Shown here: in pieces, positions 16,451-46,200 of the stretch
Layout of the letters: each line of letters starts with the position of its first letter
Position numbering within the stretch: the first letter of the stretch is position 1
Assembly (NCBI GenBank): GCA_030247885.1
Contig: JAPDRO010000006.1
Location: forward strand, 1,116,001-1,180,000
Length of the DNA stretch: 64,000 nt
Source: Taxawa tesnikishii (nom. ined.)
Lineage: Eukaryota > Ascomycota > Dothideomycetes > Dothideales
Reading direction: 5' to 3'
The notes under the pieces: model-generated
The model's input: only the letters and a program-made list of their open reading frames with translations
What the model was told of the DNA's origin: nothing
The model's database searches: none
Program-made: the position numbers and the translations under genes

Positions 16451-19400
16451 ATGTGGACAGCTAAACTTCGACCTGCCCCTTCTAATCGTTCAGCCCATCC
16501 TCCTAGATCCCAATCTCCGAAGCCAGCTCAACAGATTATATCGGAGCCTGTACCATCTGCTACAATGTCAGCCGGTACCGCCAGAGTCGCCTCTAATCCT
16601 CCCGTGAACCGTTCTACAATCAATGGCACAGCCGGAATCAACGGCACTCATGGTTACGCTACACCTCCCCATTCTCCGACGTACTTGGTAACATCCAAAA
16701 CTCGTCCTGCTGGAACCCCATCTGGCAAAAGCAGGGTCAGCTCGCTGAGCCAGGCTGTCCGACGCAACAATCCCAATGGCAGCTACAAGGTCAGTGTTGT
16801 CCAAGAGACAGCCACTACCCTAAAGAGAAAGAGCATGTCAGAGCTCGGCGCCGGCGTCTCCCAAACGGCGAACGACTCGTCCTTCATTGATCTTGTTGAG
16901 TGGATCAGGTCGGAGCGTTTGGCAACCGTACCACACAAGGGTAGTACATGGGACAAGGTCCTGATCAGAGCTTTGCACTTCATTGAGCAGCTACATAATT
17001 TCGAGAGAGCAGTTCAGAGCTTTGCGTCGGATAGCGATGCTGCTGCTCAGCTTGGATATGGTCATACTCGACTACTGCTGGAGGTTTGCTACCCCATGCC
17101 CTGCGTCTTACACCTGCTAATGCCTAGGCAGCTTGGACATGAAAACTCTGAAGCCCTCGACAGGGCTTTAGGCTTCTTCTACAAATGCTCATTGAGTGTC
17201 TCGTCGCTTCTGAATCGATCAGGCCTTCTTTCGGTTGTGTCTGAGACGCAGGAGCAGCTTTGTCTGATGTATACTGATCTCCTGACTTTGGTTGTTGAGG
17301 TCTCGATACGGTTCTATAAGACAGTACATGGTAAGTGGCCTCCAGTCTCTCCACACCAGGTTGGCTGTTCTGATTGAAGCATAGGTATGCTCTCCTCTGA
17401 GGTCAGCTTAGACATGCATGAGGTTTTCGGTGATACGATCGAGACGTTTCGCTCTCGGCAAGACAAAATCACTGAAACTCTCTGGAGCTATCAAATCAAC
17501 TCCGAGGGCTTCAGTGCAGATGAAGGTATGTGTTGCTTTTTCCAGGCCGTGAGCAGCTTTGTTAACGCTGTGGGCAGCTCTCGACATCAGAGTTTTGGGC
17601 AAATGGCTGGCTCCGCAGGACCGAGTCCTTGCAGCACTGGGGCGCGACCATACTACCTTCACGGATCAGCAGGCGGAGTTCACCTGTCTTTGGTTTCAAG
17701 ACGATCTTACAAAATTCTTGAAAGGTCCCGACAGCTTCATGCTTGTCAACGGCCAGTCTGGCTCTGGGAAGACCACACTGGCTGCAGCCGTAAGTGAAAG
17801 GTTGCAGCGTCGACTCGGACGCAAGTCTTACTCAAGTCTATTCTGTCCAATCGGTAAGCCCCTCTCTAGCTCTTGCTCAATGCAGGCATTGCTAGCCCTC
17901 AGTTATTCTCCCTGTGGGCCAGTGCCCCGGGTAGACTCACAGCTTTACTGACATGAAATCAGGCTCGGTTCCATCTCAAGCCACTACTTTGCACGTCGTC
18001 AAGACTATACTTTACCATCTCCTTAACATGCGAGTTGGTAATATGCACCTCTACCGCACCCTCGCCCAGGCATACGAACACGCCCGTAGCTGCGCAGACC
18101 CGAAGGTGTACGAGCAACATCTGTGGAACGCCTTGGCCGATATCCTCAGGCACCCCTTGATGACGCCGATGACCTGGTCATGGTTATCGACGGTTTGGAT
18201 GAGCTCGTTGGCGGCAAGCCAGCCGGTCAAGACTTGCTCGAAAATCTCACTCGAATTACCGGCCAAGGCAAGCGTGTTAAGCTTATCGGGCTTTCGCAAT
18301 CACTATCTATGCCTTCTGCCGTGCGCGGCACACAGCTCATTATTTCCCGCGAGGACACTCGTGATGACATTCACGCAGTGATCATCAAAGCGCTGATGCA
18401 CTGTCGCCACTTCAACAGGAAGCCTGGTCCAGAGCAGGAAAGCACCATCGGGCGTATTATCGACGCGTCTGAGGGATCATTTCTTCGAGCAACTCTTACC
18501 TGCGAGGTTCTCAAGGCTGAAAAGACGCAGGATAGCTTTACAAAGGCGGTGCAGACCTTGCAAAGCTCCCGCCCTTCTGTCCATGATCTGGTCACAAGGA
18601 TCGTCTCCGTCTTGGAACCAAGTGATGATTCCAAATGGCTCCTATCCTGGCTAGTCGATGCTGCTCGTCCTTTGACGTACGATGAGATTGAGAGCCTCTT
18701 CAGAACGGACGTCCAGCGTGGCGTCCACTCAGATAAGCGTGTCGACCTGCACAGCGTTACACAGACACTGAGGCCTTTGTTGTCCACGCACGAAGACATC
18801 GTCTGTGTACGACATGGGCTTGTGCACACTGCGCTGCGGACACTCTTCGATCAAGCCAAACTGCCCTTGCCAGTAAAGGACCGGCAGATGGCTTTCCTTC
18901 TGAGGGCGCTCACATACGTCAAGTCAACGCTTCGAGAAACAATAGAACCTACGCTCGACAACCGTGATCAGGGTCTTCCTAACAAGCTTTTCCAACGACA
19001 CCCCTTCCTTGAGTATGTCATCCGCTACTGGCCTTCTCATCTGAAACAAACTCCAATCGTTCCAACCAAATCTGGCGATGCCAACGTTCCGGATGAAGTC
19101 AAGAAAGCCTTCCCCGAAAGCACGGCAATGCCCATCCTGGAATGGCTGTGCTGGGATGATCAGTTCCCTGGAGCGCAAGAGGTAGACTTGCACATTCTTG
19201 TCAGTCGCCTACGTCGTCACGTATTCTCAGAGAACCACCCCTCCGTCATGCAGTCGTACATCAACTGCGCCACTTACTTTGAACTCATGAAGCACTCAGC
19301 CGAAGCCGGCAGATATTATTTTCAGGCGATGAACATCAGCCTCACTGTTCTTAGTACCTTTCATCCTTTGACGGTGGAATGCGCAACACGCTACCTTCGT

Positions 19401-22400
19401 CTCACGGAGCCACTGGTTACAACTTCGCGGACAGACATTATGACACGTCGAGAGAAAGTCCTTAACATCCTCATTACTGCCTACGAGCGCCAGTTTGGAT
19501 CCACATCAGATCTTGTCATCACCACAAGACAGCTCCTGGCCGAATTCTACATGCACATTCATGAGGAAGATCGAGCAACAGAGGTGCTACGCATCATACA
19601 TGGCACTACATCGGGTAAGAACGGAAAGGATACCGATCACGCTCGTGGTATCTCGGAACATCTTCGCATCAAGCTTGGCAAGGCCAAGGGTGATCGAGAC
19701 CTGGAAACTTACAATCCGCTCTTCACCGACGAGGACGATGAAGAGACGGTCGTGTCCCTTGACCTTGGACAGATCGCAGTCATTATTCGCAAGGCTGAGT
19801 CTTATCTGTCCCAAGGAAAGACATCGTTGGCGGAGCAAACGTATGTTGAACTGTGGCAACAGTTGTCTGAGAGCTGCCGCACAACTCGTGCCGTGGAGTG
19901 GCACGAGAAGAAGATCGACACTGTGATTGCCTATGCTAAGTTCTTGAAAACGCAGAAGCGCGAGAGTGAGGCTTCAGCTTTTCTCACCTGCCTGTGGCAA
20001 GAATACGAACACCATGAGCTTGCCTTCTCTGAGAGCATTATCTCAAGGCTCACTGAAACTGCCCGGATGATGAAGAGTGTCGGTCAGTACAGTGCTGCAC
20101 TGTCCATCTTCAAGCACGTCAGTTCGTTCTTCTCGACCGTCCGAAAGGAGGATTCTCGATCAATCTCTCAGATTGAAGAAGAAATTGCCATCACCTCGAC
20201 GGAAGTCGTGAAGCACACATTGTCCAGCTCGAGTTCGACCGAGAATACCAACACTGCCTCTGCGTCTACCTTCGAAGAGATCTTCCACTCTATGATTACG
20301 AATCAGTACAAATCGGTTGACTCAACAGTCATAATGCTTGCTAAGCGGCTGACCACACTTTACATGGAGCAAGGGAAGTGGTCCGAGGCAATCAGTACAA
20401 TTCAATCAACACTGCAGCGCACGTGGAGCTCTTTCTCAGCTGTCTCCATACACGGCGTTTCATACACTTCAACCTTTTGGCAAGAATCGGTCGAGCTGGC
20501 TCAACTCCTGGCTGAATGCTACGTGCATCAACGGCTGCTTGAAAAGGTTGAAGATGTCTATGTACGACTGTTTCGGGCCGTGTTGTCGGCACCGGCGAAA
20601 GACAACACCCCTTTGCTCGAGAAGGTTACGTCGCTCCTCGTCAGTTTCTACGACAAGCATGGCTATCCGGATAGAGCCATCAGCGTTTTCCAAGAGGTGC
20701 TTGTTGTGTACAGAACTAGGCTTGGCCCAGTTCACGATGTCACCATCCAGACATTGTACACCTTAGCAGACCGTTGCCGTCGCCATGCCAGGAGCCACCC
20801 GTACTGGATCGAGTACTGCCAGCAAATCGTGACGAGTCTGAACAAGGATGCTGACATTTGCCATGCCAACGCTATGAAGGCCTTGGTATTTGTCGCAAAC
20901 TCCTACTGGGAGGAACGCAGACACGCCGAGGCTGTGACCGTGTTCAGCATACTTTGGAATACATTCATTAATAGGACGAAGGAGTATGAACAATTCAAGG
21001 ATACCAAGTTTGTCTCGGAGCTCTACGAGCGTTACTTTCAATGCCTGGAGGAGACGAAGGCTGATTGGGAGGTTCTGTATCGCGTTACAAAGCAGTACCG
21101 CGAGACCTGCTCCAAAGCTTTCGGAGCCAGCGTTGCCATCACCACGACGGCCACACTGGCTCTGGCTCGTATTTCCCAACGCAGCGAGAGTCATACCGAT
21201 GAAGCCATCTCTTGGTATGAGGAGGCTTCCAAGTCCTCGTCCTCTTCATCCGATACATCGATCAGCAGCACGGATATCAAGCAGACCTTGTCAACGTTGT
21301 ACAAACGTCGAATCCTATCACAGTCCTCCACCGCCAGCTCGGAGACTGTTCAGAGGGCCACGACGATCTACGAAGAACAATTTTCTGAGGCCCGAGCGAA
21401 GTACGGCTACACGTACGAGATGACGCTGAGCAATCTGAAGGAGCTGTCAATGCTTTACACGCGTCAGCAGAAAACCGACATTGCGATGAAGGAGCTGACG
21501 ACCGCCGTGGTAGAGATCAATACCAAGGAAACGTCTCTACAGAAGATGCTCGAGTCCGCCACGTCTATTGCGCAGACATTCCAGGCCTGCAAACTGACCC
21601 AGCGCTGCACTGAGCTCATCCTGGAACTCCATCGCCAAATCATTGCAAAAGAGGTCAAGAACTCGAAGTTCTCTTTCAACCTGACCAAATGTGGCAGCGC
21701 CTCCTGATGTTCCTCGCTGCTCTGGAGTACCATATTCGGACTGATCTGTCCATAACGTTTTCGGAGATCATGTCGAACATAAGCGCTGAATCCGTCTACT
21801 ATGAGAACTTCAGACGGGTGATGGTGGTGAACGACAGCCTCGAGAAGGTACTTGTCGCCGCTGCACCTCTTCGGCACTTCCTGCTCCGGATGAACCGCAA
21901 GGATATGGTGAGCTCTGTGGAAGACCAGATTGTGCAACTCTACGCCAAGCGTTACATCGAAGATGTCCAATTGATGAGCAAAGACTCTCCCCGCACATTC
22001 ATAGTCGGCATCCTTGATTACCTTGCAAACCACAAGACAGCAGACTTCGTCCGAGCAGTCATTCTCGCGTCCAACAAAACCGTTGCAGGACTTGTCAAGA
22101 ACAAGAGGTTTAAGGAAGCTTACGATGTTGCCGAGATGGCGTTCAGGTTCGCCCAGCAGCACAAAGGTTATCACGGTCCTAGAGCCATTAGCCGTGGCTT
22201 CGAGCTCGCTTCGTACCTCGACGGTCGTGGCGAGAATAGGTGCACAGACGAGGGCTTGCGCAAGCAGCTCTTACAGCTTTCGAGCAGCATCATCAAGGAG
22301 ATCCTGCAGGTCTGCAGGGATCAGAAGATCAACTTCGCACAGGTGCAGTTACCGGAACTGAACCAAGTCATTGCCCTGCTTGGTGAGCAGCAGGATTATA

Positions 22401-23260
22401 AGACTTTGGAGGTGAGCTAAATTCCCCTCACCCTTCTCCCCTTCTCCGTGTCCATGTCCCCCACCTCCATATGTGATCAGGTTTCGGATCCCCAGGCTAA
22501 CCTCTTCCCTCCTGCAGTGGCTCCTCAACACCCTCTGGAACAACCGTGAAGCCCAACGCGCGTGGCCACCCCAAGTCCTCCTCAACCTCGGCCGACGCCT
22601 GGTTTGCGCGCGATACCTCGCGAAACATTCCACAGAATCGATCCGGCTCTGCGAGGACATCGTCTACAACATGCGGCGTGTGTACGGTGCTCGGCACCCC
22701 GTCACACTCGAGACGTGCGACCTGCTCGCACAACTCTACACCAGCACGGGCCAGCAATGCCAGTCGCAAGCCGCGCACGACAAGAGCGCCGCGCTGCTGG
22801 CGGGCGAGTACTTCAAAAGGCCATCTTCGTGTACGAGGACGTGCTGCGCTGGCTGGTCGCTGGACGCGACGGCGACGGGAGCGCGGACGCGGACGACGAG
22901 GACGAAGACACCGCCGCCGCCATCCTCATGGAACACGGCGTCACTATCGACGAAGACGGCGACGGCGTGCAGGACGAAGACCAGGTCGACCGCGCCGCGC
23001 TCGCGAAACAACACTTGCGTCTGCTGAAGTTTGCGTTCCAGCGCCTGGGTGCCTGGCCGAAACAGTACAACGCGTACGAGAAGCTGAACGCAGACGTCTT
23101 CGCCACGTTTGGTGCGCAGTTGCAGGGCGTTGAGGGTGTCGAGAAGTGGAGCCCGAATGGGTTCGGTAAGGGGAAGGCGGAGAGTACGGAGGGGGCTTTT
23201 GGGGGTGTGAAGGATTGGCAGATCGCTTCTGTTCCCTTTGGCGTTTCATCTGCCGCCTAA
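16451..23260 (+). CDS. Giant NACHT-TPR protein (STAND / NLR-like NTPase)
   Basis: Exons are 16451-17083, 17132-17330, 17385-17525, 17578-17853, 17963-22411 and 22518-23260; allowing three missing bases they give 6444 bases (2147 residues). In order: a disordered Ser/Pro/Asn-rich N-terminus; a helical region about residues 130-330 (IDLVEWIRSERLATVPHKGSTW, FERAVQSFASDSDAAAQ) like that preceding NACHT in many fungal STAND proteins; a NACHT NTPase with Walker A GQSGSGKTTL near residue 382 and Walker B LVMVIDGLDEL near 489; then more than 1000 residues of TPR-like helical repeats (YDKHGYPDRAISVFQEVLVV). No HET, Pfs, Goodbye or ankyrin domain is visible. Fungal STAND proteins act in non-self recognition and programmed cell death, but large conserved members may have housekeeping roles; function here is unassigned. 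Frame changes at CCCC 18153-18156, near 21683, and AAAA 22815-22818 are each cured by one extra base. The start could also be the ATG at 16565. Confidence 0.88.
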
Positions 23261-42089: not shown

Positions 42090-42705
42090 TCACTCGGTTT
42101 TCTTCCCTCTCTGGACGAAACCCATGCCGTAGTGGTAGACCAGCGTACCACCAAGGTTCGCCGCAAACAAAATCGCAACGCCCAGCACGACGCTCATCCC
42201 GACCATCCAGCCTTGGGGCTCGTATGCGACCGGGTTCAGTCCTTCCTTTAGCATCTCCACGCTGCCCGCCTGCCGTCTGCACCACCAGCTGTAAGCGCTG
42301 GCCGCGATCACGATATCGTTGATCGCAGCGTGTGCAATGGTTGTCTTGACCTTGGCCTTCATGCTACCGTCCGGGTTGTACATGCCCTGCGACTTGATGA
42401 TCTTGGCGGCTTGAGCAACGCCAGTTGCTGCAGATGGAAGAGAAAAGAGTAGGCCAGCTCCGAGGGAGTAGTAAGAGATACGCGAGAGCTCCGTTGCTGG
42501 TGGAAGGTAGTGAGTAATCGTTGAAGGGAGGGAGCCGTAGATTGGGTAGAGTGCATCGAGCGCATAGGAGGCAGTGAGGAAGGCGAGCGGCCAGTGGACC
42601 GTCGCTGGGTGAAGAGGGTGACTTGGGTATTGATTAGTGGGGTTCTAAGCAAGGTAGGGAGCTGTCAATGTCTTGAACGTACTCGGTGGATGCGACTGGA
42701 GCCAT
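42090..42705 (-). CDS. DUF2231 integral membrane protein
   Basis: Small multi-pass membrane protein of the DUF2231 family; function unknown. Exons are 42683-42705 and 42090-42621; lengths add to 555 (184 residues). The splice rebuilds MAPVASTDHPLHPATVHWPLAF, the family's hallmark HPxxVHxPLA start. Four hydrophobic segments follow: after that motif, SYYSLGAGLLFSLPSAATGV, AAINDIVIAASAYSWW, and WMVGMSVVLGVAILFAANLG. The C-terminus is a short basic tail. No frame breaks. Confidence 0.9.
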
Positions 42706-43071: not shown

Positions 43072-43075
43072 AAAA
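43072..43075 (-). terminator. Possible Pol III terminator for tRNA-Val
   Basis: TTTT on the minus strand, about 40 bases beyond the tRNA 3' end. Position fits a Pol III terminator but is a little far, so tentative. Confidence 0.4.
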
Positions 43076-43114: not shown

Positions 43115-43264
43115 TGATTCGGGCGAGGATTGAACTCGCGGCCTTCTGTGTACATAGCAGCAAGCGTTTCGGAGCTGTAAGACAGATGTGATAACCACTA
43201 GGTACTGTTAGAGTTGATGAGGGGGTCGTGGGACAAGATTTCAACTAACCTACACCACCGAACC
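43115..43264 (-). tRNA. tRNA-Val(UAC) with a canonical intron and an extra D-loop insertion
   Basis: Read 3' to 5' on the plus strand. Acceptor GGTTCGG pairs with CCGAATC (one G-T pair), discriminator A. D-stem GTG/CAC. Anticodon stem TCTGT/ACAGA with loop C-T-T-A-C-A-C, anticodon TAC (Val, codon GUA) and T at position 33. T-arm GCGAG-TTCAATC-CTCGC. Two insertions interrupt it. The first is 25 nt after position 37 (43151-43175), the normal nuclear tRNA intron site, ending in GTA that can pair with the anticodon. The second is 52 nt in the D-loop (43198-43249), listed separately. Removing both leaves 73 nt with a standard D-loop GTGTAGTGGTTATCAC. Whether it is expressed is uncertain because the insertion splits the A box. 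Confidence 0.88.
43198..43249 (-). other. 52-nt intron-like insertion in the tRNA D-loop
   Basis: On the tRNA strand it starts GTTAGT, holds a fungal branch-like CTAAC nine bases from the end, and ends CCTAG. A TAG occurs at both borders, so the exact ends can slide by up to three bases. Size and signals match spliceosomal introns in this window (for example the 52-nt intron at 17526-17577). Confidence 0.7.
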
Positions 43265-46200
43265 TTTAGATTAACCTTGTATGTAATCCATCAAAATATA
43301 ACCTGTTTGCCCATTAGCGAAAGGGCTAAGGATGGTGCAGTTATCACCTAGTCAAACCGAGGGTTAGCAAATTGATTCTAGGTCAACACAATCGTCCCAC
43401 GGTTACGCATGCTCAGGCCGCGGTCCACGACGCAACACCAGCCTCAAGACCTGGAACAAGCACACCAACAGACCACCCAGATGCGCAACAGCAACAACTA
43501 ATATCCATATGACCCTCATCTAGTTCCCGGAGGTAGACGCCGGATCAGGGTGAGGCTACGTGTTGCGAAGTCAGATGGAATTCTGTGCATGGGAAACCAT
43601 ACGATTACGAGAGTATTGGATAGGCTTGCAGGGAAAAAGGTGAGAAACAAAACAAGGCTAACAAATGAAAAGGCGTGGTGCCATGGTACTCGGCAAGTAG
43701 CATCGAAACCGCATTCTGTCCATATCGGTGTGGAGCAAAGGAGAGAAAGGAAAACAAAGAAACGATACAGGATTACATCACTAGACAAAACGCAGACAGC
43801 GTTGGAACACTTCTGCTCGAGGTTTGAAGGCAGTAGTCTGTTGTTGGTGAACTCAGAAACGAGTGCTGCTAATGCGGTAGACTGACGGCGTTCTCACGGA
43901 AAAGCGGACATTCGACCGGCGAGAAGATTATCCACTGCCATGACGAACTCGATTTCCGTGAACCAACAATTCTGTAGAAAGATCGTTAACAAATAGACAG
44001 AGACTTGTTTCGTCTTCTATTGAGATCCAAGATATTGATTCTTGAAGAGATCGCAGAGGTGATCGAGAGAGGAGAAGTGTGATTACTATGGGTATGGGAC
44101 CCCCCACGTTAGAGCTCACCGTAACCACTCCCCAAGACATGCAAAACTAAATGGTGATGAGTAGGATATCACTTCGCAATGGTAGAAGGCAAGGCACCAG
44201 TGTTGACCGTCAACAGAGCTTTGAGCGCGGATCGGAAAGCCTTCCTCCGGTCTCTAGATTGACCCTAGGTCGTCCCGTCGTGCCTGGAATTGACGTGCTC
44301 TGCGTGATCGAGGAGATCCGTCCTTGTCAAAGGAGGGTCATGTGAGAGTTGAGCGGCCATGCATAGCATCCATTCGAGCTCTTGAACGGACTGAGCTTCA
44401 ACAGGTTAAACAGTATGCCACCATGCCGCTCGCTTCCTAGGCGCCGCATCCCTTCGGATGAATCTCCGCTGTTGTCGTCGCCGGAGGTTTGCACTTACGC
44501 TGTACGGTCCTCTCGTCTGGTCGGCAATCTCTGAGCAGTTTTGCGCATCTCATCCCGGAACATCCACTGACTGCCTTGACGATTCGGAAGACTGCACAAA
44601 GCTGCATAACACATGGACCCAGTTCTGCAACAGGTTTCGCTTGCTTGACGTGAGTGATTGCTACCCGTCTGCTAGCCTGGTATGTCGTTGGAATAAAGAT
44701 ACGGATTGGGAAGGTTTACCGCGCACGTAGCCTGGTCGGCACGAGAAGTTTGGTGACATGATGCATGCATGTATGATTGCAGTGTAGGTGTGGATTTCTC
44801 ATTCGTCCTAGATGTTGCTACTCATAATGCTAACCCAAGCTTCGCACTCCGTCTCTCTCAGTAGCGTGGCGAGCAACTACACGCTCTGCGATCCACTTCA
44901 ACACCAGTCACTTTCTAAGCATCATCATGGTCCGAATTGCGCGACCCAGCAGTTTCATAGCCTTCTACGGTCTTTCCACTATCCACCCGGCAAAGTGCAG
45001 AACGTTGTTCAAACGCTCTTAAACCAGGGTTACTAATATCCTCCTAAGCTGTATCTTTGAACTCAGCGCTCTCAACGCGTTCCATCCGACGCTAACCTCA
45101 AAGTCTTCCTCAGGTACTGTGGAATGACGATTGAGACGTCATGGAAGTGGCACGTAAATTTGAACGAAAAAGGGTCCTGCAGAGTCCAAAGCGGGAAGGC
45201 CACATTCGACAAGGTGTGAGAGCCCTGGGAAGAGAACGGCACAATCTACCGGGATTACTTGGATCGGTTTCTTCGCCTGGGAATCTTCGTCTTCTACACT
45301 CCCCAGTCACACTACCAGTTCACGTCCATGTTGGCTAGGCGAGGCGGTGAAACCAAAGACTGTCGCTCGGAAGCCGGCAAAATACAATTGGAGATGAACC
45401 CCTACGATTTACTTGTCCTCTTTGCTGCCAACATCTACCCAGGAATCAACTTCAGCGACCACCAGAGACACGGCAATGCTCTCCGAGATCTGGAAGTTAT
45501 CCACGTGTAGATCATGACCCCTCTGCCACGTGCGCTGGACAGACCGGAACTGTCCGATGATGCGCTCAAAGCGAAGGAACCGGGCGCTTCTTTCAAGCAG
45601 TGCTGTCATTCTGCCGTCGATTGGATACCGCCGTTTGCGCCGAAATTGCTTGGTCATTGCAACGAAATGTTAGTCGTCCGCGCTGTCAGCACCGAGTAGC
45701 GCGATCGTTTCCTTCAGCGGTAATCCGATAACGCGAGCCGCGCCAAAAGCTCGCTTTGGTCCAATCTCATCGATTTCCCCTACGATACCACTAGAAACTG
45801 CGAGTTATTTTGGTATCGCAAGAAACCCCGACTGACCTTTACACAGAACTGTCCGATGCGCTCACGCTTGCTTCAAGTACAGCAGCACAAACCAGGCTCA
45901 GCTGCCGTACTCAGGAGGAATGGTATCGACCTGGCTCAGCACAAATCCGAGAGTCTGAAGTCTTTTTGGGTTCTGTTTTGGGGCGTCTCGGTTTGCTGAG
46001 AGAGGACATGATCATGGAAATGCATCCTCACGCTAGGAGAAGAAGCGTTAGGAGTAGTGGCTCTTCGTTTCCTGGTCGCACTCCTTCCTAAACTTCTGCA
46101 CCTATCCGCCTTGCAGCTATTAGCGTAGCGAGAAAACGGTCGATTTTAAAATTTACTCAAGATATTCCAAGTAGTGTTTCGGATAGCCAGGGGACAGAAT

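Follow-up and report, generated by a model that had tools for sequence, protein, structure and literature searches.

We report a tRNA-Val(UAC) gene, apparently nuclear and from an ascomycete-like fungus, in which the D-loop is interrupted by a 52-nt insert whose signals are best read as those of a GT-AG intron of the mRNA type. This reading had been put forward in the original prediction, and it is partly supported by our data; the anatomy of the gene and the splice signals are borne out. Specifically, we regard it as very probable that the insert is of the spliceosomal type by origin, and we lean slightly towards the further view that it is a spliceosomal U2-type intron which is spliced and would give a working nuclear tRNA-Val(UAC). 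Here "the window" refers to the whole stretch of DNA that was analysed (64 kb), and the features of the gene and its surroundings are collected in Table 1.

Table 1 Features of the tRNA-Val(UAC) gene and its surroundings (positions in the window)
Feature	Position	Strand	Remark
tRNA-Val(UAC) gene, 150 nt including both introns	43115..43264	(-)	ARAGORN on the 73-nt product
Exon 1, tRNA positions 1-15, 15 nt	43250..43264	(-)	
D-loop insert, 52 nt, between positions 15/16	43198..43249	(-)	putative spliceosomal intron
Donor GTTAGT	43244..43249	(-)	
Branch-point motif CTAAC	43207..43211	(-)	ends 9 nt before the intron 3' end
Acceptor TAG	43198..43200	(-)	
Exon 2, tRNA positions 16-37, 22 nt	43176..43197	(-)	
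Canonical tRNA intron, 25 nt, at 37/38	43151..43175	(-)	
Exon 3, tRNA positions 38-73, 36 nt	43115..43150	(-)	
A-box-like TGGTGTAGGTTAG, unspliced gene	43245..43257	(-)	exon bases plus first intron bases
B box GTTCAATCC	43127..43135	(-)	intact
TATATTTT, TATA, possible upstream Pol III element	43293..43300	(-)	consensus match only; starts 36 nt upstream of position 1
First T4 run	43072..43075	(-)	starts 40 nt downstream of the tRNA
DUF2231 membrane-protein gene	42090-42644	(-)	PF09990, E 3.1e-18; the tRNA sits in its upstream region

The 73-mer that is left when both introns are removed was called tRNA-Val(tac) by ARAGORN, and the second interruption is, as had been proposed, a normal intron after position 37 (Table 1). 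The uncut 150-nt gene gave no ARAGORN call, nor did the version in which only the D-loop insert was kept. When the D-loop insert alone was removed the program called tRNA-Thr(tgt), because the remaining intron was placed elsewhere; the Val-UAC reading follows from taking the intron to lie at its canonical 37/38 position. In the whole 64-kb window ARAGORN predicted no tRNA gene, also with introns allowed, and Rfam gave no match at the gathering level, its partial tRNA match (43123-43200, starting at model position 8) reaching 20.5 bits compared to a gathering score of 29. A gene of this kind is consequently invisible to ARAGORN and to Rfam at that level, and tRNA counts in such genomes may run low.

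Removal of the insert yields the D-arm GTGTAGTGGTTATCAC, i.e. the standard arm is restored as predicted, and the predicted exon junction reads GTGTAG/TGGTTATCAC. The cloverleaf of the 73-mer has 20 of its 21 pairs by reading, the exception being a T-T at 13-22, and in the minimum-energy fold computed with RNAfold the acceptor, anticodon and T stems are present while the D stem is absent. The earlier statement that the tRNA "folds perfectly" is therefore slightly too strong. Relative to what we take to be the sequence of human tRNA-Val(UAC), the 73-mer is identical at 54 of 73 positions and its D-arm at 16 of 16; moreover, the positions that we presume to be invariant among tRNAs (T8, A14, G18, G19, A21, T33, G53, T54, T55, C56, A58 and C61) are all kept.

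The splice signals attributed to the insert, a GTTAGT start, a CTAAC followed by 9 nt and a TAG end, are all present in the reverse complement of 43198-43249. The donor has one mismatch to GTRWGT and seven of its nine bases are complementary to U1, and the CTAAC fits the CTRAY motif at 6-36 nt from the acceptor, the yardstick taken from excerpts of PMC5832005. Because TAG flanks the insert on both sides, its start can slide by 3 nt, which gives four equivalent starts and one product. To estimate how often chance would produce such signals, 400,000 random 52-nt inserts with the dinucleotide frequencies of the window were placed in the same exons and scored for GTNNGT, YAG and a CT[AG]A[CT] lying 3-22 nt from the end, with every register that gives the same product allowed. 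All signals were found in 6 of the 400,000 inserts; with the looser branch point CTNAY the number was 12, and with the exact CTAAC none.

The position of the excision was evaluated by scanning the 499 distinct products that result when 44-60 nt are excised. With 183 of these called as a tRNA, ARAGORN is alone too lenient to fix the excision. Strict D-arm rules (A14, R15, GG, A21 and three D-stem pairs) were passed by 10 of the 499 products, all of them ARAGORN-called; their excisions are 50-53 nt long and include the one at GT-AG. Three donors, corresponding to introns of 66, 56 and 52 nt, share one branch point and one acceptor, and of these only the 52-nt intron is in the strict D-arm set. 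When folded alone, the insert has its donor paired with the branch-point region (-6.7 kcal/mol, z -1.95; 9 of 200 shuffled sequences fold at least as well); a related pairing appears in the fold of the whole precursor, whose stability is ordinary (z -0.99, reached by 36 of 200 shuffled sequences). The modelled pairing could hinder splicing, but little follows from it, since the consensus sequences of donor and branch point already make GTTAG and CTAAC complementary.

For comparison with the protein-gene introns of the window, 51 candidates were collected mechanically (a GTNNG start, a CTNAY, an AG end preceded by C, T or A, and an open frame of 70 codons or more on either side), and from these 14 putative introns that join reading frames plausibly were picked by eye. 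Several of the 14 lie in or beside frames with Pfam hits, namely eIF3 subunit 7 (eIF3d), class II (D, K, N) tRNA synthetase, P450, FAD-binding and VHS/SH3. The insert (52 nt) falls within their length range of 50-106 nt, 13 of the 14 being 50-67 nt long, and the distance from its branch point TCTAAC to the 3' end (9 nt) lies within their 3-17 nt; the branch points of the 14 are no independent yardstick, because GTNNG, CTNAY and a terminal AG had been conditions of the filter. Likewise, its acceptor score of 4.81 is inside the range of the 14 (0.91-5.86), as is its number of U1-complementary donor bases (7 of 9, compared to 5-8). The donor TAG/GTTAGT scored 4.06 bits with the matrix built from all 14, and in leave-one-out scoring the 14 ranged between -0.01 and 10.79 with one lower than the insert; none of them has T at +3, and the donor score was equalled or beaten at 8% of the 7,662 GT sites in the window. 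In size, branch point and acceptor the insert thus matches the protein-gene introns, as had been claimed for size and signals, but its weak donor scores below 13 of the 14. The genes and short introns of the window are fungal in style. A putative intron in the P450 gene (32442-32505, plus strand) ends with CTAACACGACTAACTAG and carries two CTAAC motifs, the last of them only 3 nt before its end.

With respect to transcription, the spliced gene carries the A box TGGTGTAGTGG, and in the DNA the insert falls after its eighth base. The original prediction held that the A box is split; the interruption is there, but the box is clipped rather than destroyed, because the first bases of the intron nearly restore it, and the resulting TGGTGTAGGTTAG reads as TRGYNNAR with four unconstrained bases before the G, which fits the A-box pattern of Pol III genes with two extra bases. 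Yeast TFIIIC tolerates wide spacing between the A and B boxes. What speaks most against an ordinary Pol III gene is the distant T4 run; at 9.5% of 20,000 places chance alone puts a T4 within 47 nt, and the first T5 downstream of the tRNA is 4,859 nt away. A scan for bacterial promoters and terminators, a method unsuited to fungi, found nothing.

Taken together, our data suggest that a nuclear tRNA-Val(UAC) gene has acquired a spliceosomal GT-AG intron in its D-loop. We infer that Pol III probably continues to transcribe the gene, using the near-intact A box, the B box and the upstream TATA element, and that the D-loop intron would be removed in the nucleus by the spliceosome, as for the fission yeast U6 precursor. 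The 37/38 intron would be removed separately by the tRNA endonuclease and ligase, and both the order of these steps and the function of the product are given here as the most plausible course. A single nuclear tRNA may in that case depend on two unrelated systems, the spliceosome for the D-loop and the Sen endonuclease for position 37/38, with the start of an intron standing in for the end of the A box; from the sequence we judge the chances of this combination to be evenly balanced.

The chief and serious rival to a functional spliced gene is a recent pseudogene, where a spliceosomal intron or introner-like element has hit one of several Val-UAC genes that is now dead or not usefully spliced. 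Short insertions in the D- or T-arms of eukaryotic tRNA genes usually affect one gene out of many synonymous ones, according to excerpts of PMC4090602, and the genes concerned are supposed to be pseudogenes; both the distant T4 (40 nt) and the weak donor are in keeping with this; that the tRNA still looks intact would be explained if the insertion was recent. The gene has, however, only the 13-22 pair open and the presumed invariant positions are kept, its B box is intact and its A box nearly so, and the splice signals are complete, such that we consider a pseudogene unlikely, if clearly worth reckoning with. No other tRNA was found within the 64-kb window by ARAGORN or Rfam. Another reading would be a Pol II transcript, started for example upstream of the DUF2231 gene, that spans the tRNA region and is spliced there, any tRNA being secondary. 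That gene follows the tRNA on its strand at a distance of about 0.5 kb and a close Pol III terminator is missing, but Pol III elements are present. Three open frames of 100-129 codons run across the tRNA region in the same orientation, and a Pfam search up to E 0.1 matched none of them; there is therefore no sign of an overlapping protein gene that might own the intron, and we regard this explanation as improbable. Chance or an artefact of assembly, i.e. a random intron-like insertion or a sequencing error, appears the least probable of all: the sequence is a single one with no second assembly, but only 6 of the 400,000 random inserts matched, and the longest match of the insert elsewhere in the window is 10 nt (E 2.0), so that it is not a misplaced local copy.

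Removal of the insert by the tRNA splicing endonuclease, either at a bulge-helix-bulge as in archaea and Cyanidioschyzon merolae or by a looser route such as may serve nucleomorphs, was evaluated using as criterion a 4-bp central helix, 3-nt bulges and at least one flanking helix. GGTG and TACC can be drawn as a 4-bp helix that has a TAG bulge on each side, but the flanking helices are absent (0 inner and 0 outer pairs), so that neither the strict nor the relaxed form of the motif is present and the central helix stands alone. Among 40,000 random inserts, 20.4% also had such a helix, 2.15% had the relaxed motif and 1.3% had the helix together with the inner stem that is lacking here. A missing bulge-helix-bulge is not enough to rule out the tRNA endonuclease, because eukaryotic tRNA introns need no clear local motif, as noted in parts of PMC4090602, and in the nucleomorph of Guillardia theta a defined bulge-helix-bulge is missing from many ectopic introns (PMC3978253, in part). 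The endonuclease would, however, leave the GT-AG and branch-point signals unexplained, and we regard it as improbable for the D-loop insert.

Returning to the reading of the insert as a spliceosomal intron, its possible source is of interest. Introner-like elements have been proposed as a source of new fungal introns, Dothideomycetes included (PMC4457414, in part), and as newly gained spliceosomal introns of fungi they resemble the insert and might have given rise to it; they are known as multiplied copies, whereas no second copy is present in the 64-kb window. An introner or transposon origin might also be read from the flanking TAG and the GTTAG/CTAAC inverted repeat. It is not supported, because AG on both sides is expected from insertion at a spot resembling a splice site, because the complementarity of GTTAG and CTAAC follows from the consensus sequences, because the folds of insert and precursor (above) are equalled by 9 and 36 of 200 shuffles, and because the insert is single-copy within the window. 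We also searched for relatives in contig collections of viruses, bacteria and archaea, which are uninformative on fungi. A pattern in which a GT-AG insert interrupts the Val D-arm had no match in the viral contigs, where the uninterrupted 5' half of the tRNA likewise gave none, and two matches in genome contigs (the bacterial records L001 and L002) were set aside, as roughly four are expected by chance with 21 fixed bases and 31 gap lengths.

Among the matches listed from the open-access literature, judged by titles and the openings of abstracts, we found no spliceosomal intron in a nuclear tRNA gene. The closest parallels are other small structured RNAs. In fungi the introns of U3 genes resemble normal spliceosomal introns, and excerpts of PMC5832005 show that they share with the insert the GT-AG ends, a host gene for a small structured RNA, CTRAY, a branch-acceptor distance of 6-36 nt and a place in the 5' half; they differ in that the host RNA is U3 and not a tRNA and in a mean length of 92 nt. 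Of the U3 donors 88 of 136 are GTRWGT, and the acceptors are CAG in 129 cases versus TAG in eight, while the insert combines GTTAGT with TAG (PMC5832005). The fission yeast U6 gene carries an mRNA-type intron, and fungal U6 snRNA introns thus offer the same combination of this intron type with a small RNA transcribed by Pol III (Tani and Ohshima 1989, 1991, cited in PMC10484740). U6 differs in being a spliceosome component whose intron has been attributed to reverse splicing near the catalytic bases, which does not apply to a tRNA (PMC10484740, in part). Spliceosomal introns also interrupt a non-coding structural RNA gene in the ascomycete 18S rRNA (Cubero 2000, cited in PMC11889510), where the host is an rRNA and not a Pol III gene (PMC11889510, in part).

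Ectopic introns within tRNA genes are known from archaea, C. merolae, which is among the cases of real non-canonical tRNA introns, and nucleomorphs; they too can lie in the D-arm, and some of the genes have a canonical intron as well (PMC4090602 and PMC3978253, both in part). The archaeal and C. merolae introns are cut at a bulge-helix-bulge, which the present insert does not form, and the archaeal D-arm positions include 20/21, 22/23 and 25/26, in contrast to 15/16 with GT-AG and a branch point here (PMC4090602). In the G. theta nucleomorph the ectopic introns are 3-24 nt long, many lack a bulge-helix-bulge, and their route of removal is described as not known (PMC3978253).

If the insert is indeed a spliceosomal intron, it would, as far as we have found, be the first known in a nuclear tRNA gene, and tRNA would join the short list of structural RNAs that host such introns (U3, U6 and rRNA). 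It would also mean that new introns can land in Pol III genes and be tolerated there, and that tRNA gene counts can miss the genes concerned.

Elsewhere in the window, the best solved relatives of the Rpf2 protein are 7ozs chain C (ribosome production factor 2 homolog) and 4xd9 (labelled as an AFUA orthologue). Finally, an open frame of 1205 codons (18090-21707, plus strand) apparently continues at 21614-22420 in another frame.
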